From Methylobacterium sp. Leaf108 (lineage in GTDB: Bacteria > Pseudomonadota > Alphaproteobacteria > Rhizobiales > Beijerinckiaceae), in NCBI RefSeq assembly GCF_001423265.1, contig NZ_LMND01000032.1:125149-189148 (forward strand): a DNA stretch of 64,000 nt, in the 5' to 3' direction. Position numbers and translations under genes: made by a program. Every line of letters begins with the position of its first letter. Position 1 is the first letter of the stretch. The notes under the pieces are model-generated. The model made no database searches. It had not been told where the DNA came from and saw only the letters and a program-made list of their open reading frames with translations. Positions 51,252 to 64,000 of this stretch are shown here, piece after piece.

Positions 51252-53051
51252 TCATGCCGCCGCGAGATAGGCCCGCCACCCGCCGAACCGCGTGATCTCT
51301 TCCGCCCCCTCGACGGCATGGGCCTCGCACAGGAACCCGGACACGATGCGGCCGTCCGCCAGGACGACCTTGCCGATCCCGAGGGGGGCGGAGATCGCCG
51401 CCGCGAAGCGGCCGAAGGCGTCCGGCGACAGCCCCCAGACCTCGACCGCCAGCCCCGGCCCGGCAAAGCCGGGATCGCGCAGGAGCCCGGGCTTGGCGGG
51501 CCGGGTGCCGGGCAGGGCGTAGAGGCGGTAGTCGGGCGCGGTGCGTGCTTCGCCCATCAGCGTCGCCCCGAGGTCGACGAGCTGGTGGTTGAGGGCGAGC
51601 CCCGAGAGATGGGCGCCCACCACCACCAGAGGGATGGTGCCGGGCACGGGCGGAGCCACGCGGCTCGCCTCGGGCAGCGCCGCCGCGCGGTCGACGCCCA
51701 TGCCAGGGGCGAGCGCCCGGTGCAGGGTGTCGGCGAGGTGCCCCAGGGCGTCGTCGCTGAAGCCCGGCCCCACCATGGTGACGCCGCCGGGGATGCCGTC
51801 GGGCCGGAAGCCGGCGGGGATCGCGATGGCGGCGTAGCCCAGTAGGTTGGCGAAGTTGGTGTAATGCCCGAAGCGGCCGTTGAGGCGGAGCGGGTCGGCC
51901 AGCATCGCCTCCACCGTGTAGGTGGTGGGCGCGGTGGGCAGGAGCAGGATGTCGACCTGCGCGAAGGCCGCCTCGGCGCGGCGGCGCAGGGCCTGCAGGG
52001 CATAGAGGCCCTCGAAGGCGTCGACGGCGCTGTAGGCCCGCGCCGATTCGACGATGGCCCGCACGCTCGGATCGAAGGCGTCGGGGTGATCGGCGTGGAA
52101 GGCGGCCACCGCCGCCATCCGCTCGGCGACCCAAGGGCCCTGGTAGAGCAGTTCGGCGGTCTCGCGGAAGGGGGCGTAATCGAACGGCACCGCCACGGCG
52201 CCGGCCGCCTCCAGCCGGGCGACCGTGCCGTCGTAGAGCGCCTCGGTGCCGCGATCGCCGTGGAACTCGCGCTCGGCCGGCGTCAGCACGCCGACGCGCA
52301 GGCCGGCGGCGGGGAGGGCATGGGGCGCGGCGGGCCGCGAATAGGCGTCGGCCGGGTCGAACCCTTCCGCGATCCGGCGCACGGCCAGGCCGTCGCCGAC
52401 GGTGGCGGCGAAAAGACTGATGCAATCGAGGCTGCGGCAGGCGGGCACGAGGCCGGTGGTGCTGAGGAGGCCCGGCGTCGGCTTGATGCCAACGAGGTTG
52501 TTGAAGGCCGCCGGCACCCGGCCGGAGCCGGCGGTGTCGGTGCCGAGGGAGAAGCTCGCCAGCCCGGCGGCGACCGCCACCGCCGAGCCGGAGCTCGATC
52601 CCCCCGAGACGTAGGCCGCGTCGAACACGCTGCGCGGGGCACCGTAGGGGGAGCGGGTACCGTTCAGCCCGGTGGCGAACTGGTCGAGGTTGGTCTTGCC
52701 CGTCACGAGCGCGCCGGCCGCCTTGAGCCGGGCCACCACCGTCGCGTCGGTCGTCGGCCTGTAGGCGAAGGCCGGGCAGGCGGCGGTGGTGGGCAGGCCG
52801 CCGACGTCGATGTTGTCCTTGACCGCGAAGGGCACGCCCCACAGCGGCAGGGAGTTCGGCTCGGGGTGGCGTGCGACGAGGTCGCCCGCGGCGGCCACGA
52901 GGTCGGCCCGGCTCACGGGCGTGATGAACACCGCCGGGTCGGCGAAGGCCTCCATGCGGTCGGCGACCGCCTTTGCGAGATCCACCGGCGTGAGCCGGCC
53001 CGAGGCGTAGAGGTCGCGCAGGGTCGAGAGGTCGAGGATGGTCGGCAGCAT
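51252..53051 (-). CDS. atzF: allophanate hydrolase
   Basis: A 599-residue enzyme that splits allophanate to ammonia and CO2. The amidase domain has the triad K78 (VPFAVKDNIDVGG), cis-Ser S152 (SGGSSSGSA) and nucleophile S175 (DTAGSGRVPA). The C-terminal domain (about 470–599) is the extra fold found only in allophanate hydrolases. ATG 53051 has GAGG ten bases before; GTG 53060 overlapping the carboxylase stop is possible. It follows the biotin-dependent carboxylase directly. The symbol reflects homology to AtzF/DUR1,2-type enzymes; the carboxylase is the immediate source of allophanate. Confidence 0.93.
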   Translation of the reverse strand: MLPTILDLSTLRDLYASGRLTPVDLAKAVADRMEAFADPAVFITPVSRADLVAAAGDLVARHPEPNSLPLWGVPFAVKDNIDVGGLPTTAACPAFAYRPTTDATVVARLKAAGALVTGKTNLDQFATGLNGTRSPYGAPRSVFDAAYVSGGSSSGSAVAVAAGLASFSLGTDTAGSGRVPAAFNNLVGIKPTPGLLSTTGLVPACRSLDCISLFAATVGDGLAVRRIAEGFDPADAYSRPAAPHALPAAGLRVGVLTPAEREFHGDRGTEALYDGTVARLEAAGAVAVPFDYAPFRETAELLYQGPWVAERMAAVAAFHADHPDAFDPSVRAIVESARAYSAVDAFEGLYALQALRRRAEAAFAQVDILLLPTAPTTYTVEAMLADPLRLNGRFGHYTNFANLLGYAAIAIPAGFRPDGIPGGVTMVGPGFSDDALGHLADTLHRALAPGMGVDRAAALPEASRVAPPVPGTIPLVVVGAHLSGLALNHQLVDLGATLMGEARTAPDYRLYALPGTRPAKPGLLRDPGFAGPGLAVEVWGLSPDAFGRFAAAISAPLGIGKVVLADGRIVSGFLCEAHAVEGAEEITRFGGWRAYLAAA

Positions 53052-53056
53052 GGGGG

Positions 53057-56000
53057 TCACACCTCTTCGATCACCGCCACGAGGTCGCCGCCCCGCAGCG
53101 TCTGTCCCGGGCGCACCCGGATCTCACGCACGATCCCTGCCGCGGGGGCCGCCACGGGCACTTCCATCTTCATCGATTCGAGGATCGCCACCGTCTCGCC
53201 GGCCGCGATCGTGTCGCCCACCGCCTTTTCCACCCGCCAGACGTTGCCCGGCACGGTGGTCGCCACCCCGAGGCAGCCGGTGGGGACGGCGTCGGCCCCG
53301 GCTTCCGGCGCCGCCTCGTCGGGCACGAAGCTGTCGAGCCCCTGCTCCTTCCAGCGCCGGCGCTCGGCCTCGAAGGCGGTCTGCTGGCGCAGCTTGGCCG
53401 CGGCGATCTCGCCCGCGTTGGCGGCGAGTCCGGCCCGGTGGGCGGCATGGGAGAAGCTCCCGTCCTCGATCCGGATCGGGTAGGCGCCGTGCGGGAAGGC
53501 GGCGCGGGCCTCGGTGAGCTCGGCGTGGTCGACGGGGAAGAAGCGGATGCGGTCGAACGGCCGCAGCAGCCAGGGGTGGCCCGGCACGAAGTCGCGGGTC
53601 GTCCGCCAGGTGTTCCAGATCTGGATGGTGCGGCCGACGAGCTGGTACCCGCCCGGCCCCTCCATGCCGTAGATGCACATGTAGGCGCCGCCGATGCCGA
53701 CTGCGTTCTCGGGCGTCCAGGTCCGGGCCGGGTTGTACTTGGTGGTGACGAGGCGGTGGCGCGGATCGACCGGCGTCGCCACCGGGGCGCCGAGGTAGAC
53801 GTCGCCGAGCCCCATGACGAGGTAGCTCGCCTCGAAGACGATGCGCTTCACCTCCGCCTCCGAGTCGAGACCGTTGATGCGGCGGATGAAGTCGATGTTG
53901 GAGGGGCACCAAGGGGCGTTGGGGCGCACCAGGTCCTGGTACTGGCGCATGGCGCGCTCGGCTTGCGGGTCGTTCCAGGACAGCGGCAGGTGGACGATGC
54001 GGCTGGGCACCGTGACGTCGTCGACGCAGCCCAGCCCGGCCTCGATCTCGCGTAGCAGGCCGAGGAGGCGGGCGCGCGCCAGGACCGTGCCGTCGTAGTG
54101 GATCTGGAGCGAGCGGATGCCCGGCGTCAGGTCGAGGAGGCCGGGAAGCTTCGCCTCCGCCACCGCCTGCGCCAGGAGGTGGACGCGCAGGCGGATGCCG
54201 ATGTCCAGCGCCATCGGTCCGTATTCGACGAGGAGGTTGTCGTCGCCCTGGCGGCGGTAGACCACCTCGACCGGGCCTGAGACGTCGCGGGCGAGGATGG
54301 GGGAGCCTCGGACGGCAACCCCTGCCCCCAGCAGATCTCGGGCCTGCCCGAGATCTGCACTCCCCTGCGGAGGGGGGAGGAAACCCGCGCTCTCGCCGTC
54401 GACGTCACCGGGCCGCTCCACCGCCACGAACCGCACCCGGTCCCCCGGCCGCAGCTGACCCATCTTCCACAATTCGTCGCGGGCGATGACGCCGGGGCAG
54501 ACGAAGCCGCCGAGACTCGGCCCGTCCGGCCCGAGCAGGATCGGCATGTCGCCGGTGAAGTCGAGGGCGCCGACCGCGTAGGCGTTGTCGTGGAGGTTCG
54601 AGGGGTGCAGCCCGGCCTCGCCGCCGTCCTCCCGCGCCCAGCGCGGGGTCGGGCCGATCAGGCGCACGCCGGTGCGGGCGGAGTTGAAATGCACCTCGTA
54701 AGCTGCCGAGAACAGGTCGGCGATGTCGGCGTCCCGGAAGAAGTCCGGCGCCCCGTGCGGGCCGTAGACGAGGCCGATCTCCCAGTCCGCGGTGAGCGGC
54801 ACCGGCTCGGGCGAGGCCGGTTCCACCGCGGCGACGGCGCCGAGATGGAGGGTGTCGCCGGCCTTGAGCACGCCGGTGGCGTGCCCGCCGAAGGCCCCGA
54901 GCGCGAAGGTCGCCCGCGAGCCGAGCACCACCGGCGCATCGAAGCCGCCGCGCACGCCGAGGTAGCTGCGCATCCCCGGCCCCGCGATGGCACCGATGGC
55001 GAGCGTGCCGCCCGCCGGCACCGCGAAGGCCTGCCCGTGGGGCTGCACGACGCCGTCGAGCCGGGCGGTCATGGCCGCCCCCGACAGCGCCACCACGGTT
55101 TCGGCATGGAAGCGCAGGGTCGGGCCGGACACGGTGAGTTCGAGGGCGCAGGTGTCGGGCGGGTTTCCCACCAGCGCATTGGCCACCGCGAAGGAGCGCG
55201 CATCCATCGGCCCGCTCGGGGGCACGCCGACATGCCAGAGCCCGAGGCGGCCGGGCAGTTCCTGCAGGCTCGACTGGGGGCCGGGCGCCAGCACCGCGAC
55301 GCTGCGCGGCGTATATGCGACGTCGCGCAGGGCCGTGGTGGCGACACGCCCGCTCGCGAAGAGCTCCGAGGCCGCGATGGCGCGCAGGTAGCCGAGATTG
55401 GTCTCGATGCCGGCGACCACCGTCTCGTCGAGCGCCGCGCGCAGGGCGGCGATGGCCGCCGGCCGGTCCGCTCCGGTGACGATGATCTTGGCGAGCATCG
55501 GATCGTAGAACGGGGTCACCTCGGTGCCGGTGACGATCCAGCCGTCGACGCGGACGCCGTCCGGAAAGCGCACCTGCGTCAGCAGGCCGGCGCTGGGCGC
55601 GAAATCCGCATGCGGGATCTCGGCGTAGAGCCGCGCCTCGATGGCCGCTCCCTTCGGCACCAGCGGTCCGGCGGTGCCGATGGGGTCTTCGCCGGCGGCC
55701 TGGCGGATCATCCACTCCACGAGGTCGATGCCGAACACCGCCTCCGTCACCGGATGCTCGACCTGGAGCCGGGTGTTGACCTCGAGGAACGAGATATCCT
55801 GGCGGTCGGGATCGTAGATGAACTCGACCGTTCCGGCCGAGGCGTAGGACACGCTCGTCCCCAGGGCGACGGCCGCCGCGTGCAGCCGGGCGCGCACCGC
55901 GTCCGACAGGCCCGGCGCCGGCGTCTCCTCGACGACCTTCTGGTTGCGGCGCTGGAGCGAGCAGTCGCGCTCGCCGAGCGCCACGACGCGCCCCTGCCCG

Positions 56001-56644
56001 TCGCCGAAGATCTGCACCTCGACGTGGCGCGCGCGCGCCACGAAGCGTTCGAGGTAGACCCGCGCGTCGCCGAAGCTCGCCCGCGCGGTGCGCTCGACGC
56101 TGGCGTAATGCTCGGCGAGCTCGGCCGGCGAAGTGCACAGCCTCATGCCGATGCCGCCGCCGCCGGCGGTGCTCTTGAGCATCACCGGATAGCCGATCGC
56201 CTCGGCCGCACCGAGCGCCGTCGCGAGGTCGGGGAGGAGGTCGGTGCCCGGCAGGAGCGGCACGCCGCTGGCCTTCGCCAGTTCGCGCGCCGTGTGCTTG
56301 AGGCCGAAGGCGCGCAGGTGCTCGGGCCGCGGCCCGATGAAGACGATGCCCTCCGCCGCCAGGCGTTCGGCGAAGGCCACGTTCTCGGACAGGAAGCCGT
56401 AGCCGGGATGGACGGCCTGCGCCCCCGTCGCCCTGCAGGCGGCGATGACGGCGTCCACGTTCAGGTAGCTCTCGGAGGCGGGCGCCGGGCCGAGGCGAAA
56501 AACCTCGTCCGCCTCCAGCACGGCGGGGGTGAAGCGGTCGGCGTCGGAATGCACCGCCACCGAGGCGATCCCCATGCGCCTGCAGGTGCGCAGGATGCGC
56601 CGGGCGATCTCGCCGCGATTGGCGATCAGGATCTTTTGGAACAT
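53057..56644 (-). CDS. urea/guanidine carboxylase (biotin-dependent)
   Basis: A 1195-residue single-chain carboxylase. Order: biotin-carboxylase domain (MFQKILIANRGEIARRILRT, ATP-loop GGGGIGMR, EVNTRLQVEHPVTE), then the carboxyltransferase half with the allophanate-type KipI/KipA-like regions, and a C-terminal biotin carrier with ESMKMEV (biotin K1159). Usual length for urea carboxylase. With UAAP1 and UAAP2 the family is now known in several bacteria to carboxylate guanidine, not urea; a residue-level decision was not possible here. A REP-like palindrome (54331–54358) is read in frame, adding about 25 residues of low-complexity linker. Its start overlaps the UAAP2 stop (TGATG). Confidence 0.93.
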   Translation of the reverse strand: MFQKILIANRGEIARRILRTCRRMGIASVAVHSDADRFTPAVLEADEVFRLGPAPASESYLNVDAVIAACRATGAQAVHPGYGFLSENVAFAERLAAEGIVFIGPRPEHLRAFGLKHTARELAKASGVPLLPGTDLLPDLATALGAAEAIGYPVMLKSTAGGGGIGMRLCTSPAELAEHYASVERTARASFGDARVYLERFVARARHVEVQIFGDGQGRVVALGERDCSLQRRNQKVVEETPAPGLSDAVRARLHAAAVALGTSVSYASAGTVEFIYDPDRQDISFLEVNTRLQVEHPVTEAVFGIDLVEWMIRQAAGEDPIGTAGPLVPKGAAIEARLYAEIPHADFAPSAGLLTQVRFPDGVRVDGWIVTGTEVTPFYDPMLAKIIVTGADRPAAIAALRAALDETVVAGIETNLGYLRAIAASELFASGRVATTALRDVAYTPRSVAVLAPGPQSSLQELPGRLGLWHVGVPPSGPMDARSFAVANALVGNPPDTCALELTVSGPTLRFHAETVVALSGAAMTARLDGVVQPHGQAFAVPAGGTLAIGAIAGPGMRSYLGVRGGFDAPVVLGSRATFALGAFGGHATGVLKAGDTLHLGAVAAVEPASPEPVPLTADWEIGLVYGPHGAPDFFRDADIADLFSAAYEVHFNSARTGVRLIGPTPRWAREDGGEAGLHPSNLHDNAYAVGALDFTGDMPILLGPDGPSLGGFVCPGVIARDELWKMGQLRPGDRVRFVAVERPGDVDGESAGFLPPPQGSADLGQARDLLGAGVAVRGSPILARDVSGPVEVVYRRQGDDNLLVEYGPMALDIGIRLRVHLLAQAVAEAKLPGLLDLTPGIRSLQIHYDGTVLARARLLGLLREIEAGLGCVDDVTVPSRIVHLPLSWNDPQAERAMRQYQDLVRPNAPWCPSNIDFIRRINGLDSEAEVKRIVFEASYLVMGLGDVYLGAPVATPVDPRHRLVTTKYNPARTWTPENAVGIGGAYMCIYGMEGPGGYQLVGRTIQIWNTWRTTRDFVPGHPWLLRPFDRIRFFPVDHAELTEARAAFPHGAYPIRIEDGSFSHAAHRAGLAANAGEIAAAKLRQQTAFEAERRRWKEQGLDSFVPDEAAPEAGADAVPTGCLGVATTVPGNVWRVEKAVGDTIAAGETVAILESMKMEVPVAAPAAGIVREIRVRPGQTLRGGDLVAVIEEV
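54331..54358. repeat. palindromic element inside the carboxylase gene
   Basis: GCAGATCTCGGGC, a two-base loop, and GCCCGAGATCTGC form a perfect 13-bp stem. CCCTGCCCCC precedes it and CTCCCCTGCGGAGGGGGGAGG follows. The element lies in a coding region without breaking the frame. It encodes part of SAGFLPPPQGSADLGQARDL, a linker-like stretch. Confidence 0.85.
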
Positions 56645-57297
56645 CACAGTCCGTCCCGGATCGTCGCTCGGTCCCGGATGGTCGCTCGGTCCCGGATGGT
56701 CACCTGGATCGGCGTCGGGTTGAAGCCGTTGCAGGGGTTGTTGATCTGCGGGCAGTTGGAGATCACGCAGATCACGTCCATCTCGGCGGTGACCTCGACG
56801 TAGTCGCCGGGCGAGGAGACGCCGTCGACGATGGCGAGCTGCCCGTCCTGTTCGATCGGCACGTTCATGAAGAAGTTGACGTTGGGCGGGATGTCGCGCT
56901 TGGACAGCCCGTATTTGGCGACCTCCAGGGCGAAGTTCTCGCGGCAGGCGTGGAGGTACTTGGTGGCGTGGCCGAAGCGGACGGTGTTGGCCTCGCAGGA
57001 GCAGGCGCCCGCCGAGGTGTCGTGCCGCCCGCAGGAATCGGCCGTGACGACGGCCATCACCCGCCCCTCGTTGGAGACGAGCCGGGTGCCGGTGGTGACG
57101 TAGGCCGCCCCCTGCACCCGCAGGGTGTCCTGCGAGGAGTAGCGCTCGCCCATGTCGTCGGCGCGGTAGAACAGGGTGTCGACCGCCTGGCAGCCGTCGA
57201 GGTCGGTGATGCGCAGAATCTGGCCCTTTCGGACGAGGCCGGACCATGGCGCCTGCGCGGGCACGGTCGTGTCGAGGAGAGGGGGCTCTTCGGTCAT
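56644..57297 (-). CDS. urea-carboxylase-associated protein 2 (UAAP2, DUF1989; carboxyguanidine deiminase subunit)
   Basis: A 217-residue DUF1989 protein. It has the family motifs ITDLDGCQAVDTLFYRADD, ERYSSQDTLRVQG, SCGRHDTSAGACSCEANTVRFG, PPNVNFFMNVPI and VISNCPQINNPCNGFNPTPI, whose cysteines and histidines form the metal site. In studied systems UAAP1 and UAAP2 together deiminate carboxyguanidine. The C-terminus ends in a threefold TIRDRA-type repeat encoded by three 18-bp units, which is unusual. Start ATG 57297. Confidence 0.9.
   Translation of the reverse strand: MTEEPPLLDTTVPAQAPWSGLVRKGQILRITDLDGCQAVDTLFYRADDMGERYSSQDTLRVQGAAYVTTGTRLVSNEGRVMAVVTADSCGRHDTSAGACSCEANTVRFGHATKYLHACRENFALEVAKYGLSKRDIPPNVNFFMNVPIEQDGQLAIVDGVSSPGDYVEVTAEMDVICVISNCPQINNPCNGFNPTPIQVTIRDRATIRDRATIRDGL
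56653..56706. repeat. 18-bp tandem repeat at the end of the UAAP2 gene
   Basis: Three units of GTCCCGGATSGTCGCTCG (the last diverged in its final bases) lie end to end, encoding TIRDRA, TIRDRA and TIRDGL-like ends. The unit is a multiple of three, so copy number can vary without a frameshift. Confidence 0.9.
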
Positions 57298-57311: not shown

Positions 57312-58136
57312 TTAAAAGCCGATGGCGGCGTTGTTGGAAAAGCCGCGCACGGCCTCGATGGTGGCGGTGCGGCAGAGGTCGTCCGGGCCTGGATGCGGTG
57401 CCCGGAAGCGCGTCGCCGTCACGGGGTTGGGGGCGTAGTCGGGGGCCGGATCGAGGGGGTGGGGGCAGTTGGAGAGGGTGACGACCAGGTCCATCTCGGC
57501 GCGCAGGTCGACGAAGTCGCCCGCCCGGCGCCCGGCCTCGTTCCAGGTGAAGCGCCCTTCGGCGCCGACGCTCACGGGGGCGAAGAAGGTGATCAGCGCG
57601 GGGATGTCGCGCCGGTCGAGCCCGGCCTTGAGGGCGGCGAGCACGAGGTTGTCGCGGGTGTTGCGGTGGGGGCCTTTCGCGTAGCGCGCGGCGTTGGAGG
57701 CGGCGTTGGAGCCGCCCGTCAGCGCGTCGTGGGCGCAGCAGGAATCCTCGATCAGCGAGAGCATCACCCGGCCCATGTCGGAGAACAGCACCCGGCCCTT
57801 TCGAAGGGCGGCGCTCCATTGCACCTTGACGGTGTCGGCGTAGTTCAGGCGCTCGGAGGTGTCGGCGGCGTTCCAGGCCACCAGGGCGACGCTCGACGGG
57901 CCGTGGTCGAGGGCGAGCCGCAGCGCGTCGCCGGCATGGAGTTCCGTGGTCCAGTACCAGCCGCCGGGGATGGTCTCGGCGTGCAGGATCTCCGCCTCGT
58001 CCAGCGGCAGGCCGCGCACCGAGGGCGGCGGCAGGGCGCGCGGCGCGTGCTCCTGCCCTTGCGCCTTCAGCGCCTCGTAACGGCGCCGGTTCTCGGCGAT
58101 GGTCTGTTGGATGGTGGTCGTCTCAGGTGTGGTCAT
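57312..58136 (-). CDS. urea-carboxylase-associated protein 1 (UAAP1, DUF1989)
   Basis: A 274-residue DUF1989 protein, the larger partner of UAAP2. Motifs: LHAETIPGGWYWTTELHAGDALRL, NAADTSERLNYADTVKVQW, LIEDSCCAHDALTGGSNAASN, PALITFFAPVSVG and LSNCPHPLDPAPDYAPNPV. It lies 14 nt before UAAP2. Together they probably act on carboxyguanidine. Upstream is a 117-bp gap with a GC hairpin, then the GS-like gene. Confidence 0.9.
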   Translation of the reverse strand: MTTPETTTIQQTIAENRRRYEALKAQGQEHAPRALPPPSVRGLPLDEAEILHAETIPGGWYWTTELHAGDALRLALDHGPSSVALVAWNAADTSERLNYADTVKVQWSAALRKGRVLFSDMGRVMLSLIEDSCCAHDALTGGSNAASNAARYAKGPHRNTRDNLVLAALKAGLDRRDIPALITFFAPVSVGAEGRFTWNEAGRRAGDFVDLRAEMDLVVTLSNCPHPLDPAPDYAPNPVTATRFRAPHPGPDDLCRTATIEAVRGFSNNAAIGF

Positions 58137-58253
58137 GCCCGTTCCTCACGTTCTCCGACGGGTCGTCCCGGCCGATGTCGCGCCCTGATCGCGAGGCCGG
58201 GTCGTCCCGGCCTTTTTCCTCCCCCGCTCAAGGGGGAGGGTTGGGGCGTCGCG

Positions 58254-59627
58254 CTAGAACATGTGGCTGTAGCGCTCGGTCTCCCAGGCGCTCACGGTGA
58301 GGTGGTACTCCTGCCATTCGGCGCGCTTGTAGCGGACGAACTCGTCGCGCAGCGCCGTGCCGAGGGTCCGCTCCACCAGCGGGTCGGCCGCGAAGGCGTC
58401 CACCGCCTCGGCCAGCGTCTGGGGCAGGAAGTCGATGCCGCGCTCGGCCCGCGCGGCGTCGGTGAGGTCGTAGAGGTTGTCCTCGTTGGGCGCGCCGGGA
58501 TCGATCCGCTCGCGGACGCCTTCGAGGCCCGCCGCCAGCACCAGGGCGGCGGCGAGGTAGGGGTTGACGGCGCCGTCCGCGTTGCGGCTCTCGCAGCGAC
58601 CGCCCCCGGCCGGCACGCGCACCGAATTGGTGCGGTTGTTCGAGCCGTAGGAGTTGAACACCGGCGCCCAGGAGAAGCCCGCCATGGCGCCCTGGCGCAC
58701 CAGGCGCTTGTAGCTGTTGACCGTGGGGGCGAAGGCCGCGCACAGCGCCCGCCCGTGGCGCAGGACGCCGCCGATGAAATGGTAGCCGGTCTCGGTGAGC
58801 CCGAGGCCGCGCGGATCGGCCGACGGATCGCAGGCGAAGACGTTCCTGCCGGTCTCCTTGTCGGAGAGCGACATGTTGAAATGCGCGCCGTTGCCGGTGC
58901 GGTCGGCGAAGGGCTTGGGCATCATCGTGGCGAGGAGGCCTTCCTCCTTGGCGTAGTGCTTGGCCATCATCCGGAAGAAGGTCAGCCGGTCGCACATGGT
59001 CAGCGCGTCGGCGTAGTTGAAATCGAACTCGAACTGGCCGCAGGCGTCCTCGTGGTCGAAGGAATAGAGGTCCCAGCCGAGGGCGTCGATCGTGGTGGCG
59101 ACCTTGTCGAGCCAGGAGAAGTTGTCGACGAACCCGCGCACGTCGTAGCAGGGTTTTTGCAATTTATCGTCGGCGACCGGCGTGTGCAGGGACCCATCGG
59201 CGGCCTGTCTCAGGAGAAAAATCTCACACTCGATGCCGAGGTTGAAGCCGAAGCCCATGTCCTCCGCCTCGCCGATGACGGTCTTCAGGGCGACCCGGGT
59301 GGAGAGCGGATAGGGCTGGCCCTGGAAGGTGAGGTCGGCCGGGCACCAGGCGAGTTTGGGCTCCCACGGCAGCTGGACGACCCGGGAGAGGTCGGGGACC
59401 GAGGCGAGTTCGTCCTCGTTGGGGGCCTGGCCGAGGCCGTCGAGCGCGTAGCCGGTATAGCGTTCGGAGCCGGCCGCCATCTGCGGCAGGTGGCCGATGG
59501 GCACCACCTTGGCCTTCTGGACGCCGTGGATGTCGACATAGGCGCCGATGACGTATTTCACGCCCTTGGCGCGCAGGTCGTCCTGCACGGCCTTGACGAC
59601 GGGGTCGATCTCGCTCGCATGAGCCAT
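58254..59627 (-). CDS. glutamine-synthetase-family ligase (GlnT/type III-like)
   Basis: A 457-residue member of the GS superfamily. The N-terminal β-grasp part ([21 protein letters not shown]) is followed by the catalytic barrel with [38 protein letters not shown] and [26 protein letters not shown]. The arrangement resembles GlnT or γ-glutamylmethylamide synthetase rather than the main GlnA. Within the operon it could fix released ammonia or make a γ-glutamyl amide. The TAG stop is followed by the intergenic GC hairpin at 58218–58239. Confidence 0.85.
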
Positions 59628-59644: not shown

Positions 59645-60415
59645 TTACACGGACACGTCGTAGGGGTGGGGGAGGGGCGGGGTCTCGGTCAGCCCCCGCA
59701 TCACGAGGGCGGTGAGGTCCTCGACCATCCAGGCGAACAGGCGCCCGCCCTCGGTCGCGGTCGCCTGCGAAGGGCGTCCGGTGACGCCGTTGCGGCTGGT
59801 GCGGTTGACCGGGTGGGCGAAGACGAGACCCTGCGTGCGATCGGGATCGTCGGCCTCGGCGACCCGGTCGGGCCGCACCAAGCGCGGGGCCAGCGCCATC
59901 ATCAGGGCGGTCTCGGCGGCGTTGGCGTGCCAATCGTCGGCATCGGCGACATGGGCGGCGCGGACCCGCTCGCTCACCGTGGCCGAATTGACCAGCGCCA
60001 CCATGAGGTCGTCGTGGGCGGCGCGCAGCATCTCCAGCGCGCAGCGCAGGGGCGCGGCGTTGGTGACGTGGGCGTTGACGAGGAACAGCCGGCGCACGCC
60101 GGACCGGTGGGCGCCGGTCCCCACCTGCACGACGAGCTGCGTCATCACGAGCGGATCGAGGGTGATCGTGCCCGGCCAGCGCCGGCTGTGGCCGAGCGAG
60201 CAGCTGTAGGGAAGGGTCGGCAGCACCGGCACGCGGGTGGCCGCCGAGACCGCATGCGCCAGCATCTCGGCCAGCACGAAATCCATGCCGGTGCCCAGAT
60301 GCGGCCCGTGCTGCTCGGTGGCGCCGACGGGCAGGATCGCGGCCCCGCCCACCGCGGCGAGGTCGCCGGGGAGCTCGTCCCAGGTGCGCTCGGCCCAGAG
60401 GAGGGGGGCGGTCAT
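59645..60415 (-). CDS. creatininase-family amidohydrolase
   Basis: A 256-residue protein of the creatininase fold. E34 and H36 (ATEQHGPHL) and D45 (GTGMDFV) occupy the creatininase metal positions. H116 (VNAHVTN) and E168 ([10 protein letters not shown]) are the probable other ligands. The usual NGHGGN motif is altered to NAHVTN. Family members open creatinine or other cyclic amides and guanidine-like compounds. It lies 17 nt before the GS-like gene in the guanidine/urea operon, so a guanidino-compound substrate is plausible. Confidence 0.85.
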
Positions 60416-60512: not shown

Positions 60513-61439
60513 TCATTCCACCTCGTCCCCGGCGGACGTCATCCGCGTCACCACGTCGGGGGCCACCGCCTCCTCGGCCTCGTCCTTGGGCGGGTGGATC
60601 AGCGCGTCGAGGCGCGCGCGGGTGGCACGGAACTCGGGCCCGAGGGCCTGGTCGTGGCTGCGGGGGCGGGGCACCGGCACCTCGATGAGTTCGGCGACCT
60701 CGCCCGGATGGGCGCTGAGCACCAGGATGCGGTCGGCCAGATGCACGGCCTCGTCGAGATCGTGGGTGATGAAGACGATGGTGATGTCGATCTTCTTCCA
60801 GATCTCGATGAGGTAGGCCTGCATCCGGGCGCGCGACTGGGTGTCGAGGGCCGAGAACGGCTCGTCCATGAGCAGGATGCGCGGCCGGGTGGCGAGCGCC
60901 CGTGCGATCGCGACCCGTTGCTTCATGCCGCCCGAGAGCTGGTGCGGGTAGGAGGCCGCGAAGGCCTCGAGCCCGATCAGCGCCAGCCATTGCCGCGCCT
61001 CGCGCTCGGCCTCGCGCCGGGGCGTGCCGTTCTCCTCGAGCCCGAAGGCGACGTTGCGCAGCACGCTGAGCCAGGGAAACAGGGTGTAGCCCTGGAACAC
61101 CATGCCCCGGTCGGCGCCGGGCCCAGAGACCGGCACGCCCTCGACGCTGACCACGCCGGAAGTCGCGGTCTCGAGGCCGGCGAGGATGCGCACGAAGGTG
61201 GACTTGCCGCAGCCCGACGGGCCGACGACGCACAGGAACTCGCGCCGGTGGGTGACGAGGTCGATGTCCTTGAGGGCCACCGTCACGCCGCCGTCGGCGG
61301 TGCGGAAGGTCTTCGTTAGCTTCTCGACCCTGAGCGCGACCTCGCGGCCCTTGAGCTTGGAAAAGCGCGCGCGGACCGGCTCGCCTTGCGTGCGGTAGTC
61401 GCAGGCGCCGGTCGGCGGGACGACGGGCCCGGCGCTCAC
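60513..61439 (-). CDS. ABC transporter ATP-binding protein, NitT/TauT type
   Basis: A 308-residue ATPase starting at GTG 61439, which overlaps the permease stop (GTGA). Walker A GPSGCGKSTF, signature LSGGMKQRVAIARAL, Walker B ILLMDEPFSALD and the His switch THDLDEAVHL are intact. The C-terminus has an acidic tail with no regulatory domain. It works with the permease and binding protein immediately upstream. The gap to the next gene holds a REP-like hairpin (60449–60482). Confidence 0.93.
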   Translation of the reverse strand: MSAGPVVPPTGACDYRTQGEPVRARFSKLKGREVALRVEKLTKTFRTADGGVTVALKDIDLVTHRREFLCVVGPSGCGKSTFVRILAGLETATSGVVSVEGVPVSGPGADRGMVFQGYTLFPWLSVLRNVAFGLEENGTPRREAEREARQWLALIGLEAFAASYPHQLSGGMKQRVAIARALATRPRILLMDEPFSALDTQSRARMQAYLIEIWKKIDITIVFITHDLDEAVHLADRILVLSAHPGEVAELIEVPVPRPRSHDQALGPEFRATRARLDALIHPPKDEAEEAVAPDVVTRMTSAGDEVE

Positions 61440-62473
61440 GCTTCGCTCCGATCGTAGGGAAAGAGCCGGCGGCCGATCAGGGCGAGCACGATGTCGGTGA
61501 TCGAGCCGACGAGGCCGATGATCAGGATCGCGGCGTAGACGTTCTCGAAGTGCTGGTAGCGGGCCTGCTGGGTGATGAAGAAGGTGATGCCCGAGGAGGT
61601 GCCGATGAGCTCGGCCACGATCAGGTAGGTCCAGGCCCAGCCGAGGAGGATGCGCTGGTCGCGGTAGAGCTGCGGCAGCATCGCCGGCACGATCACCCGG
61701 CGGATCAGGCGCAGGTTGCGTGCGCCCAGCGTCAGGGCCGCCTCGATCAGCAGCGGGTCGATGCGCCGCGTGGTGTTGGCGATCACCAGCACCTGCTGGA
61801 AGAAGGTGCCGATGACGATGATCGCGATCTTCGGGCCATCGTAGATGCCGAGGATCGCCACCATCAGCGCCCCGAAGGCGGGGGCGGGCATGTAGCGCAC
61901 GAACTCGATGACCGGCTCGGTGATGCGCGCCAGCGTCGCTTGCGCCCCGCACAGGATGCCGAGCGGCACGCCGACGATCGACGACAGCAGGAACCCCCAA
62001 AAGATGATCTGGATCGAATGCCACAGGCTCCAGGGCAGCCGGATCGCGTCGCGCTGGGTCGGCGCCGCGGTGAGCGAGGTCCAGAGCGCGATGGCGACCT
62101 CGTGCGGGGCCGGCAGGTAGACCGGGTTGGCGGGCGTGCCCACCGGGGGCGCGGTGTTGGCGGCGCGGGCCGATTCCACCTCCTCGGCGAAGGCCGCCGC
62201 GGGCAGGCGCATGCCGGGCTGGATCCAGGCGACGTCGCCCGGATCGGAGACCTCCACCAGGGGATGCCACAGGAACGGCAGGTAGGAGACCGCCGACCAG
62301 GCGAGGATCGGCAGCAGGAACGACAGGATCGTCAGGACGATGCGCCGGCGCGGCGCCAGGGGGCGGACGACGCCGACCCAGGAGCGGCGGCGGGGCGGCG
62401 GCGGACCTTTCCCTTCCCCCTCGACGGGGGAGGGTAGCCCACCCGCCAGGCCCTGGCGCATCTCCGCGCTCAT
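61436..62473 (-). CDS. ABC transporter permease, NitT/TauT type
   Basis: A 345-residue inner-membrane permease. A first membrane segment (IVLTILSFLLPILAWSAVSYL), a periplasmic stretch, and then about five more segments form the BPD_transp_1 domain. The EAA loop is EAALTLGARNLRLIRRVIVPAMLPQLY. The N-terminal 30 residues (AGGLPSPVEGEGKGPPPPRRR) are encoded by a REP-like sequence at 62411–62434. It starts within the binding-protein stop (ATGA). Confidence 0.92.
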   Translation of the reverse strand: MSAEMRQGLAGGLPSPVEGEGKGPPPPRRRSWVGVVRPLAPRRRIVLTILSFLLPILAWSAVSYLPFLWHPLVEVSDPGDVAWIQPGMRLPAAAFAEEVESARAANTAPPVGTPANPVYLPAPHEVAIALWTSLTAAPTQRDAIRLPWSLWHSIQIIFWGFLLSSIVGVPLGILCGAQATLARITEPVIEFVRYMPAPAFGALMVAILGIYDGPKIAIIVIGTFFQQVLVIANTTRRIDPLLIEAALTLGARNLRLIRRVIVPAMLPQLYRDQRILLGWAWTYLIVAELIGTSSGITFFITQQARYQHFENVYAAILIIGLVGSITDIVLALIGRRLFPYDRSEA

Positions 62474-63468
62474 TTGCCGTCGGTGAGCGCGGGGTCGATG
62501 GCGGCCTTCACGTCCTGGGCGGTCTTGTAGACATCGACCTTCACGTTGAAGGCGTCGGCGAAGCGGGTCGAGCCGTAGAGGGAGCCGAAGCCGTCGGCGT
62601 CCTTCATGACCTTGCGGCCCTCGGCCAGGGTCATGAGCTTGGTGCCCTTGAGGAAGCGGGTGAAGGTGGGCACGTCGATGCCGACCTTGGCCGCCATGAT
62701 CGCCACCGCGTCGGGTTGGGTCTTGGGGTCCTCGATGTAGGCGACGACCTTGTCCCAGACGCCGACGAACTTGATCCACTCGGCTCGGCGCGAGGCGAGG
62801 CTGGCGGGCGAGACCGTGACCACGTCGTAGATCAGCCCTGGCACGTCGGCGGAGGTGTAGAGGGGCTTGGCGCCGGCCGCCGCCTTCATCGCCTGGCCGG
62901 CGATGGGCTGCCAGGCGCCGACGGCCGCCACGTCGCCGGAGGCCAGCACCTGCGGCGTCTCGTTGGTCTTGGCGTTGACCAGCGTCACGTCGGTCTCCTT
63001 GAGGCCGATCTTGGTGAGGCCGTGGATGAGCAGAAGGTGCTCCACGAGGCCGACCTCGAGGCCGACCTTCTTGCCCTTGAGGTCGGCCAGCGTCTTCACG
63101 CCCGGCTTGCCGACGATCATGTCGTTGCCGTTCGAATAGTCGGTGAGCATGATCATGACGTTCTTGGCGCCGTTGCCGGCCATGACCAGGGCGTCGCCGT
63201 TGGTGCAGGTGACGGCGTCGAGCTTGCCCGCCGAGAACGCGTCCATCGAGGCCGAGTAGTCGAACCACTCGAACTTGGCGTCGACGCCGGCCTCCTTCAG
63301 CCAGCCCTTCTCGATGGCGACCTGCCAGGCGACCCAGCCCGGCCAGTCGCTGTAGCCGATGCGCAGGGGCTCGGCCGCGTGAGCGACCGGGGCGGCGACG
63401 AGGCCCAGGGCCAACAGGCCGGCGGCGACCCGCTTGCGGGCGGCGGAAGCGATCGTGGACAGGCGCAT
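62470..63468 (-). CDS. ABC transporter substrate-binding protein, NitT/TauT type (guanidine/urea-cluster)
   Basis: A 332-residue periplasmic protein. The signal peptide ends …LVAAPVAHAAEP, and the mature part begins LRIGYSDWPGWVAWQVAIEKGWLKEAGVD, the usual opening of the guanidine/urea-operon subgroup. LKGKKVGLEVGLVEHLLLIHGL follows. It is the first gene of the operon. A 28-bp palindrome lies 19–46 bases before its start. Guanidine or urea is the most likely ligand by context. Confidence 0.9.
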   Translation of the reverse strand: MRLSTIASAARKRVAAGLLALGLVAAPVAHAAEPLRIGYSDWPGWVAWQVAIEKGWLKEAGVDAKFEWFDYSASMDAFSAGKLDAVTCTNGDALVMAGNGAKNVMIMLTDYSNGNDMIVGKPGVKTLADLKGKKVGLEVGLVEHLLLIHGLTKIGLKETDVTLVNAKTNETPQVLASGDVAAVGAWQPIAGQAMKAAAGAKPLYTSADVPGLIYDVVTVSPASLASRRAEWIKFVGVWDKVVAYIEDPKTQPDAVAIMAAKVGIDVPTFTRFLKGTKLMTLAEGRKVMKDADGFGSLYGSTRFADAFNVKVDVYKTAQDVKAAIDPALTDGK

Positions 63469-63486: not shown

Positions 63487-63514
63487 GTAGTACGATTCGA
63501 TGAAATCGTAATAC
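63487..63514. promoter_or_regulatory. 28-bp NikR-like palindromic operator
   Basis: GTAGTA-N16-TAATAC, with the half-sites extended to GTAGTACGATTC and AAATCGTAATAC (10 of 12 bases symmetric). The half-site order and N16 spacing match the E. coli nik operator (GTATGA-N16-TCATAC). It lies between the ABC operon start (63468) and the NikR-like gene start (63579), so it could regulate both directions. Confidence 0.75.
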
Positions 63515-63578
63515 CGACGGCTTTTCAGGCATACAAGAGGCGTGCCAGATTCACATCGCAGCGAGGGAGCGGACGACC

Positions 63579-64000
63579 ATGGCGGATGCGAACACGGACG
63601 AGGGCGGCGCGGGGCGGCGCCGGCCGGTGAGCCGGATCAGCCTGTCCTTGTCCGAGGACCTGCTCGGCGAGCTCGACGCCATGGTGAGCGAGCGCGGGTT
63701 CGCCAGCCGCTCGCAGGCGGTGGCCACCGTCCTGCACCGGTCGCTGGTGGAGCACCGCCACGAGGTCGGCGACCGGGTGATGGTGGGCACGATCACCCTG
63801 TTTTACGACCACCTCGCCCACGGCCTGCAGCAGCGGCTGGCGGACCTGCAGCGGCGTCACATCGCCGAGGTGATCGCGTCGCTCCACGTCCACCTGATGC
63901 ACAACCAGACGCTGGAGGTGGTGCTGGTGCAGGGCCCGGCCACCACCTTGCAGACCATCGCCGACGCGATGATCACCGAGCGCGGCGTGATCTCGGGGCG
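63579..64000 (+). CDS. NikR-like ribbon-helix-helix regulator (partial at right edge)
   Basis: About 140 codons are in the window; the C-terminal end is cut. The N-terminal ribbon-helix-helix (SRISLSLSEDLLGELDAMVSERG…SRSQAVATVLHRSLVEH) and the C-terminal ACT-like metal domain (VMVGTITLFYDHLAHGLQQRL…ASLHVHLMHNQTLEVVLVQG) match NikR. Aligned to E. coli NikR, H87 and H89 are kept (H103, H105) but C95 is Thr (T111) and H76 is Arg (R92). GAGGGAG precedes ATG 63579. It is divergent from the guanidine/urea operon and probably binds the 28-bp palindrome between them. Confidence 0.85.
   Translation, partial: MADANTDEGGAGRRRPVSRISLSLSEDLLGELDAMVSERGFASRSQAVATVLHRSLVEHRHEVGDRVMVGTITLFYDHLAHGLQQRLADLQRRHIAEVIASLHVHLMHNQTLEVVLVQGPATTLQTIADAMITERGVISG

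Follow-up and report, generated by a model that had tools for sequence, protein, structure and literature searches.

The closest described relatives of the regulator studied here are the nickel-responsive NikR proteins, including those of E. coli (1q5v), P. horikoshii (2bj1) and H. pylori (2wvd). The regulator resembles them over nearly its whole length, with an RHH domain and an ACT-like NikR_C domain, and its candidate operator, like that of NikR, spans 28 bp with equally spaced half-sites. It differs in three respects: two to four of the nickel ligands are replaced in every sequence of the new type that was read, the half-site is GTATTACGAT rather than GTATGA, and the neighbors are guanidine genes and genes for an ABC transporter, a creatininase-family enzyme and a type III glutamine synthetase (GSIII). 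A second point of comparison is the Guanidine-I riboswitch (RF00442), which has the same regulatory place ahead of ABC transporter and guanidine-degradation genes, but is an RNA aptamer, whereas here we find a protein and a DNA operator. A third is MumR of Acinetobacter, which likewise is a transcription factor devoted to one operon, there with urea carboxylase and allophanate hydrolase genes; in contrast to our regulator, MumR is of the LysR family and is tied, in the accessible part of its description, to a manganese transporter and manganese starvation (PMC5050338).

Among the matches listed in the open-access literature (subscription papers and preprints lie outside it), we found no description of a NikR-like protein associated with operons for guanidine or urea carboxylase, and none of a transcription factor that responds to guanidine. 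The available portion of a 2025 review names no guanidine-binding regulatory protein (PMC12186494), and that of a 2009 NikR survey does not mention the group described below (PMC2667541). For Group I Methylobacterium, a syntenic urea carboxylase cluster has been described in a paper whose accessible text does not contain the term "NikR" (PMC5017803).

The locus lies at the right end of the window, by which we mean the whole 64,000-nucleotide stretch of Methylobacterium sp. Leaf108 DNA that was analyzed. Its features are listed in Table 1; other loci and genomes are cited by L and G numbers.

Table 1. Features of the regulator locus in the window
Feature	Position	Strand	Basis or remark
Allophanate hydrolase (AtzF-like)	51252..53060	-	Amidase, AH_C
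Urea/guanidine carboxylase	53057..56644	-	Asp695 at K. lactis urea carboxylase Asn1330
UAAP2	56644..57297	-	Reading frame; start codon estimated; second DUF1989-type match below UAAP1 cut-off
UAAP1	57312..58136	-	TIGR03425, 277.6 vs 205.95
Probable Guanidine-II riboswitch, two ACGA-loop hairpins, long linker	58155..58212	-	Just before UAAP1; homology to Rfam-passing relatives
GSIII	58254..59627	-	TIGR03105; start codon estimated
Creatininase-family amidohydrolase	59645..60415	-	PF02633, 3.9e-63
ABC ATPase	60513..61376	-	Reading frame, translation; start codon estimated
ABC permease	61436..62473	-	Reading frame and profile matches
ABC substrate-binding protein (SBP)	62470..63468	-	Profile matches; start codon 18 bp from operator
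28-bp operator-like palindrome GTAGTACGATTCGATGAAATCGTAATAC	63487..63514	.	Unique in genome, conserved in relatives
Sigma54-type -24/-12 element TGGCACGCCTCTTGTA	63532..63547	-	11/12 consensus positions
NikR-like regulator, first 140 codons	63579..64000	+	Full 159 aa = L005:1728-2207, same contig
Former nickel-site region	63852..63911	+	Alignment to E. coli, P. horikoshii and H. pylori NikR

The regulator and its former nickel site

The regulator gene starts with the ATG at 63579 and stays open to the edge of the window; the initial annotation had described a protein cut at the right edge with its ligand region complete, and the same contig supplies the remainder of its 159 amino acids. The protein matches the Pfam models NikR_C (PF08753, 83.6 bits against a cut-off of 22, 1.1e-23) and RHH_1 (PF01402, 22.5 bits against 20.5, 1.1e-4), and it aligns over nearly its whole length with NikR of P. 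horikoshii (3.6e-24) and of E. coli (4.8e-17). Based on the two domains, both over curated cut-offs, it is a member of the NikR family by descent, and it is the sole NikR_C match found in the 4.47-Mb genome. The NCBIfam models give a mixed result: NF003381, a model named nickel-responsive regulator, is passed (114.9 against a cut-off of 105), as is NF002815 (95.5 against 83), the TIGR02793 nikR score of 88 is below the cut-off of 175, and the cut-offs of NF002169 and NF001884 are not reached.

Alignment to the three solved NikR proteins (E. coli, P. horikoshii and H. pylori) places R92 (63852-63854) at E. coli H76, H103 (63885-63887) at H87, H105 (63891-63893) at H89 and T111 (63909-63911) at C95. 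The square-planar ligand set H76/H87/H89/C95 is therefore incomplete and reads R, H, H, T. The exchange of H76 for Arg and of C95 for Thr, together with the retained RHH and ACT-like domains and His-x-His of NikR, had been proposed from the window's letters and is borne out by this alignment and the Pfam matches; no alignment gives Cys or His at all four ligand positions. Judged by its ligands and its operator half-site, the regulator does not fall among the nickel-responsive NikRs; the equivalog scores are mixed.

A search of the family found a NikR match in 35 of 149 genomes, five of which have close relatives (72-100% identity, the window's own included); the remaining genomes have relatives of 25-40% identity. 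Scanning species genomes brought in another 28 loci, of which 27 are of the new type. Neither H76 nor C95 is kept in any of the 37 new-type sequences read, which include near-copies from Methylobacterium and Verrucomicrobiaceae. Position 76 is R in 22, F in 4, Y in 4, S in 2, V in 2, and L, G and A in 1 each; position 95 is T in 28, S in 5, V in 3 and I in 1. H87 is kept in 36/37 and H89 in 26/37, the other 11 having Leu, Phe or Asn. The NikR sequences of 25-40% identity have H76 and C95 in all 26 read, and H87 and H89 as well in 24 of these. In L024 and L027, two NikRs of that other lineage, H76 and C95 are kept and the His-x-His is replaced by Arg-x-Arg or Gln-x-Arg, a separate case in which the nickel site was lost in part.

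In a tree of 67 sequences, the 28 of the new type form one side of a branch with support of 99/97, and the nearest neighbors of the window regulator are from Methylobacterium; the Methylobacterium protein of L048 is 90-95% identical to it. The clade lies nearer to archaeal and H. pylori NikR than to proteobacterial NikR, a placement that is unsure because long branches meet there; with that warning, it led us to reject the idea that the clade branched off recently from the nickel NikR of its hosts. That a nickel NikR has simply decayed was rejected because domain, operator and neighbors are conserved clade-wide. Ligand-domain positions such as E98, L117 and Q119-P121 (L048 numbering) are invariant in 19 sequences, and E97 and Q118 are conserved in the clade.

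The clade ranges over Alphaproteobacteria, Gammaproteobacteria and Verrucomicrobiota, and its hosts include Methylobacterium, Beijerinckia, Hansschlegelia, Parvibaculum, one Granulosicoccaceae strain, and Methylococcaceae and Verrucomicrobiaceae MAGs. In a phylum survey of 398 genomes, 15 had a match: 9 have the new type (E <= 1e-22, among those read), G108, G899 and G792 have the nickel type, and G621, G725 and G751 were left out of the reading. All 9 new-type regulators of this survey adjoin UAAP or creatininase/GSIII genes.

The candidate operator and the sigma54-type element

The 28-bp palindrome with nik half-site spacing that the initial annotation placed between regulator and operon is found there, with arms symmetric at 9/10 positions. 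It keeps the NikR spacing over the same 28-bp span and has the half-site GTANTACGAT instead of the nik box; the GTATGA-N16-TCATAC operator of nickel-responsive NikR is not what stands at this position. The pattern GTANTACGATTNNNNNNAATCGTANTAC, with up to three mismatches allowed, occurs once in the 4.47-Mb genome (0 for a reversed-pattern control). Related genomes with the same gene pair have the site as well: all four close family relatives have it in the stretch that separates the regulator from the divergent operon, and so do further divergent loci. In L063, L066, L070 and L071, where the regulator is inside the operon, such a palindrome (a drifted form in L070) precedes the SBP gene at the head of the operon, at a distance of ~5 kb, and in L150, L151, L152 and L153 the operator heads separate units.

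The operator consensus was written after the five family loci had been seen and is circular for those, so that loci outside the family are the fair test. When 28 control stretches were shuffled, the best site was reached by 0/500 shuffles in 19 stretches and by 1-12 in 7; the site was not special in the other two, L070 with its drifted palindrome and the regulator side of L175, where the site lies upstream of the SBP gene instead. The control regions of L060, L061, L062 and L065 are off their contigs. At 37 distinct loci (41 rows) of other NikRs, the classic GTATGA-N16-TCATAC is perfect in 12 and has at most one mismatch in 20, and no new-type operator was found there at a score of at least 14/18. 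Mixed, GTATGACG-like half-sites occur only in L153 and the Verrucomicrobiaceae loci L072-L074, as an intermediate would have. Because it is unique in the genome, has NikR spacing and is kept at the operon head even with the regulator gene 5 kb away, the palindrome looks like a real operator. A chance palindrome was rejected on the grounds of this uniqueness and of conservation across loci, a form of footprinting by comparison.

Beside the candidate operator lies a sigma54-type element, scored against the -24/-12 consensus. In 20/21 loci such an element, with 9-12 of the 12 consensus positions, is found 3-17 bp upstream of the operator and aimed at the controlled operon, and in 17 of the 20 no more than 2% of block shuffles reach its score. 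L170 has one too (10/12); none was seen beside the operators of L171-L175 and L072. If the usual sigma54 geometry applies, the operator would extend roughly from the start point to +30, with the SBP start codon of the window following 18 bp past it. This arrangement suggests sigma54 nitrogen-limitation control combined with a specific block by the regulator.

The guanidine operon and its riboswitches

The operon divergent from the regulator had been described as one for guanidine/urea, and its gene order and profile matches are as described. The best solved relative of the GSIII is a glutamate-methylamine ligase. UAAP1 we take to be a carboxyguanidine deiminase subunit, and the match under its cut-off that we list as UAAP2 is at G000:C32:181804-182424. 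The carboxylase aligns with K. lactis urea carboxylase over its whole length, with Asp695 facing Asn1330, presumably the specificity position; Asp is found there in 25/25 carboxylase rows from 24 loci, in Guanidine-I-led and regulator-led operons alike. According to the accessible part of the 2025 review, Asp marks guanidine carboxylases and Asn urea carboxylases (PMC12186494). No paper confirming 1330 as the specificity position was found in the open-access literature. Because it has an Asp carboxylase, UAAP1 and UAAP2, an allophanate hydrolase and a probable Guanidine-II riboswitch, the operon is, by its sequence features, of the guanidine rather than the urea type. The association of NikR-like genes with UAAP operons that the initial annotation had proposed to check is seen across genomes: UAAP1 was found in 24/27 genomes with the regulator, compared with 41/397 genomes of the order over its cut-off.

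The hallmark of Guanidine-II riboswitches is a pair of hairpins with ACGR loops, and the segment at 58155-58212 has such a pair ahead of a guanidine gene. Both of its ACGA hairpins align with those of L048, L049, L051, L055, L040 and L041, all of which are over the Rfam threshold. The segment itself gives two partial RF01068 matches of 17.7 and 12.3 bits, below the gathering value of 32, and its best-scoring match is a sub-threshold sRNA family on the opposite strand (23.1 bits against 49.5). Shuffled versions of the segment fold equally well (z -0.52). The Rfam scan of the window gave 0 matches at gathering level, and a scan up to E 5 over 11 kb gave a single weak microRNA match. L052 has the same long-linker form and is likewise under the threshold. 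We conclude that 58155-58212 is probably a Guanidine-II element that falls below the Rfam threshold owing to its longer linker. Guanidine-II at gathering level lies inside the operon in L040, L041 and L071 (3/8) and in L048, L049, L051 and L055 (4/8), and was found in 0 of 8 further loci, which makes 7/24 loci besides the window.

Sister operons within the family have, in order, a Guanidine-I riboswitch, a more distant ABC transporter, UAAP1, UAAP2, the carboxylase and AtzF; the ABC proteins of regulator units and of Guanidine-I operons are about 28-47% identical. We collected 54 genomes with UAAP1, namely the 41/397 of the order survey and 13 from the family survey, one of these with UAAP1 in fragments. 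A Guanidine-I match over the cut-off is present in 45 of the 54. It lies upstream of UAAP1, on the same strand and within 6 kb, in 44/49 genomes that lack the regulator or have it at another place, compared with 0/5 in which the regulator heads the UAAP operon. Of the 54, 45 are without the regulator, and five of these show no Guanidine-I upstream of UAAP1; in one of the five, G459, the two are on different short contigs.

Exclusion between regulator and Guanidine-I fails at the level of whole genomes, since both occur in 4/54 UAAP1 genomes. In these four the regulator heads a separate unit, which led us, after the whole-genome form had failed, to compare genomes by linkage. Of 39 new-type genomes searched for Guanidine-I, 21 have UAAP genes that share a unit with the regulator (G000, G008, G528, G529, G531, G532, G534, G535, G035, G103, G540, G541, G550, G551, G552, G554, G664, G867, G827, G690 and G863), 11 have them transcribed apart from it (G537, G538, G542-G548, G149 and G489), and 7 are unclassed. 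Guanidine-I is present in 0/21 of the linked genomes and in 10/11 of the separate ones, the exception being G545 (1.9 Mb), counts that are inflated by shared ancestry, with Methylobacterium alone providing seven of the 21. No Guanidine-I was found in the 7 unclassed genomes, which are G530, G533 and G553 (contig ends), G536 and G539 (no UAAP1 found), G874 (outside the UAAP1 search) and G549, in which carboxylase and AtzF are convergent and no UAAP1 was found in a 1.7-Mb record.

The linked group spans Beijerinckia and other members of the family, Rhodospirillales MAGs, a gammaproteobacterium, Verrucomicrobiaceae MAGs and a further alphaproteobacterial group. In the last (G664, G867, G827, G690 and G863, loci L171-L175), the guanidine operon that contains the regulator has neither a creatininase nor a GSIII match, 28-bp sites lie upstream of the regulator (4/5) and/or of the SBP gene, and no Rfam riboswitch was found at these loci. 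As read from this distribution, regulator and Guanidine-I exclude each other at the same operon, and the regulator protein probably does the job of the Guanidine-I riboswitch.

The proposed mechanism and its signal

Family membership, lost ligands, operator, promoter element, neighborhood and riboswitch exclusion are established at the level of sequence comparison. We lean toward the reading that these describe a NikR-derived transcription factor dedicated to a guanidine import and assimilation operon, acting as its repressor at a sigma54 promoter and released by a guanidine-type compound. The regulator would bind the 28-bp operator as a NikR-type tetramer and, by covering the start point of the nitrogen-limitation promoter, would block transcription until released by a small molecule from the guanidine pathway, for which guanidine is the likeliest candidate. 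Nickel would not be the signal, because the square-planar site is gone. At such operons the protein would take the place that Guanidine-I has in the sister operons, and in several genomes it would act ahead of a Guanidine-II riboswitch. The hedged suggestion of the initial annotation, that a NikR derivative was perhaps recruited to sense something other than nickel and to control guanidine/urea use, fits the comparative evidence: H76 and C95 are lost in 37/37, the operator stays with the operon, the operon is of the guanidine type, and Guanidine-I is excluded from it. New relative to that annotation are the sigma54-type element, the Guanidine-II-like segment and the regulator's units in which ABC/creatininase/GSIII genes occur and guanidine genes are lacking. 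The more specific claim, that in this clade the nickel pocket of a NikR was remodeled to bind guanidine or another guanidino compound, giving a protein sensor of guanidine that takes over from Guanidine-I in several lineages, we regard as evenly balanced.

Several findings weigh against the proposal. Genomes with separate guanidine genes keep Guanidine-I alongside the regulator, and because it is kept, guanidine is already sensed there. The 5/45 UAAP1 genomes that lack both regulator and upstream Guanidine-I, and the operators of L171-L175 and L072 that lack a sigma54-type element, also count against it, as do regulator units without UAAP genes. The ABC transporter, creatininase-family enzyme and GSIII recur as a set beside the regulator, whether guanidine genes are present or not: ABC-creatininase-GSIII units without UAAP genes are found in Hansschlegelia plantiphila (L067/L150), Parvibaculum (L063) and L066, and creatininase-GSIII in L151 and L153. 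Finally, two Methylococcaceae MAGs have the regulator and no UAAP1 match. In these MAGs (L056:2244-4900 and L059:702-3150) the regulator adjoins a gene for a MOSC-FAD-ferredoxin fusion reductase, whose predicted start in L056 is preceded, at a distance of 137 bp, by a 17/18 operator. Because of the ABC/creatininase/GSIII partners, the units without UAAP genes and the MOSC-reductase neighbors, the signal might be a guanidino compound other than guanidine.

A related alternative, which we consider possible but rather unlikely, keeps the same regulator and operator and makes the effector the substrate of the ABC/creatininase/GSIII module, such as a guanidine with a substituent, a compound resembling creatinine or one from which methylamine is released, with guanidine sensed by Guanidine-II alone. 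The stand-alone units just listed, the kinship of the GSIII with glutamate-methylamine ligase and the distance of the ABC proteins from those of Guanidine-I operons all agree with it, but L040/L134 have the regulator with ABC and UAAP genes and no creatininase or GSIII match, L171-L175 are plain guanidine operons, and UAAP1 accompanies the regulator in 24/27 genomes.

It is improbable, in our judgment, that the regulator still senses nickel or another metal through a different coordination and so ties a nickel-independent nitrogen route to metal supply. Such a role would be consistent with the retention of H87 in nearly all and of H89 in most new-type sequences, with the absence of a second NikR_C match from the window's genome, with the NF003381 score and with the metal link known, from the accessible part of the MumR paper, for a urea carboxylase operon in Acinetobacter (PMC5050338). 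Also in its favor, the regulator is flanked by a convergent urease cluster, both just past the right edge of the window (matches to ureG, F, E, C and B, L005:2313-7901) and in L048. These are 2/32 loci, some of the 32 on short contigs, and urease was rejected as the regulator's target on this count. A metal role is also opposed by the absence of C95 and H76 from 37/37 sequences, by Leu, Phe or Asn in place of H89 in 11, and by a half-site unlike the nik box. That the regulator has no specific ligand, or reads general nitrogen status as a layer on sigma54 control, is very improbable: the sigma54-type element does adjoin the operator in 20/21 loci and Guanidine-II could supply the specific signal in several, but in L171-L175, with neither that element beside the operator nor a riboswitch, the regulator is the only specific switch seen, and the ligand-domain residues (e.g., E98, L117 and Q119-P121 of L048) are conserved over 19 sequences.

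The clade is a concrete candidate for a guanidine sensor, with a defined operator and target. If the proposed reading of it as a guanidine-responsive regulator is true, a metal sensor would have turned into a small-molecule sensor, and lineages would differ in whether an RNA or a protein performs one and the same control job.
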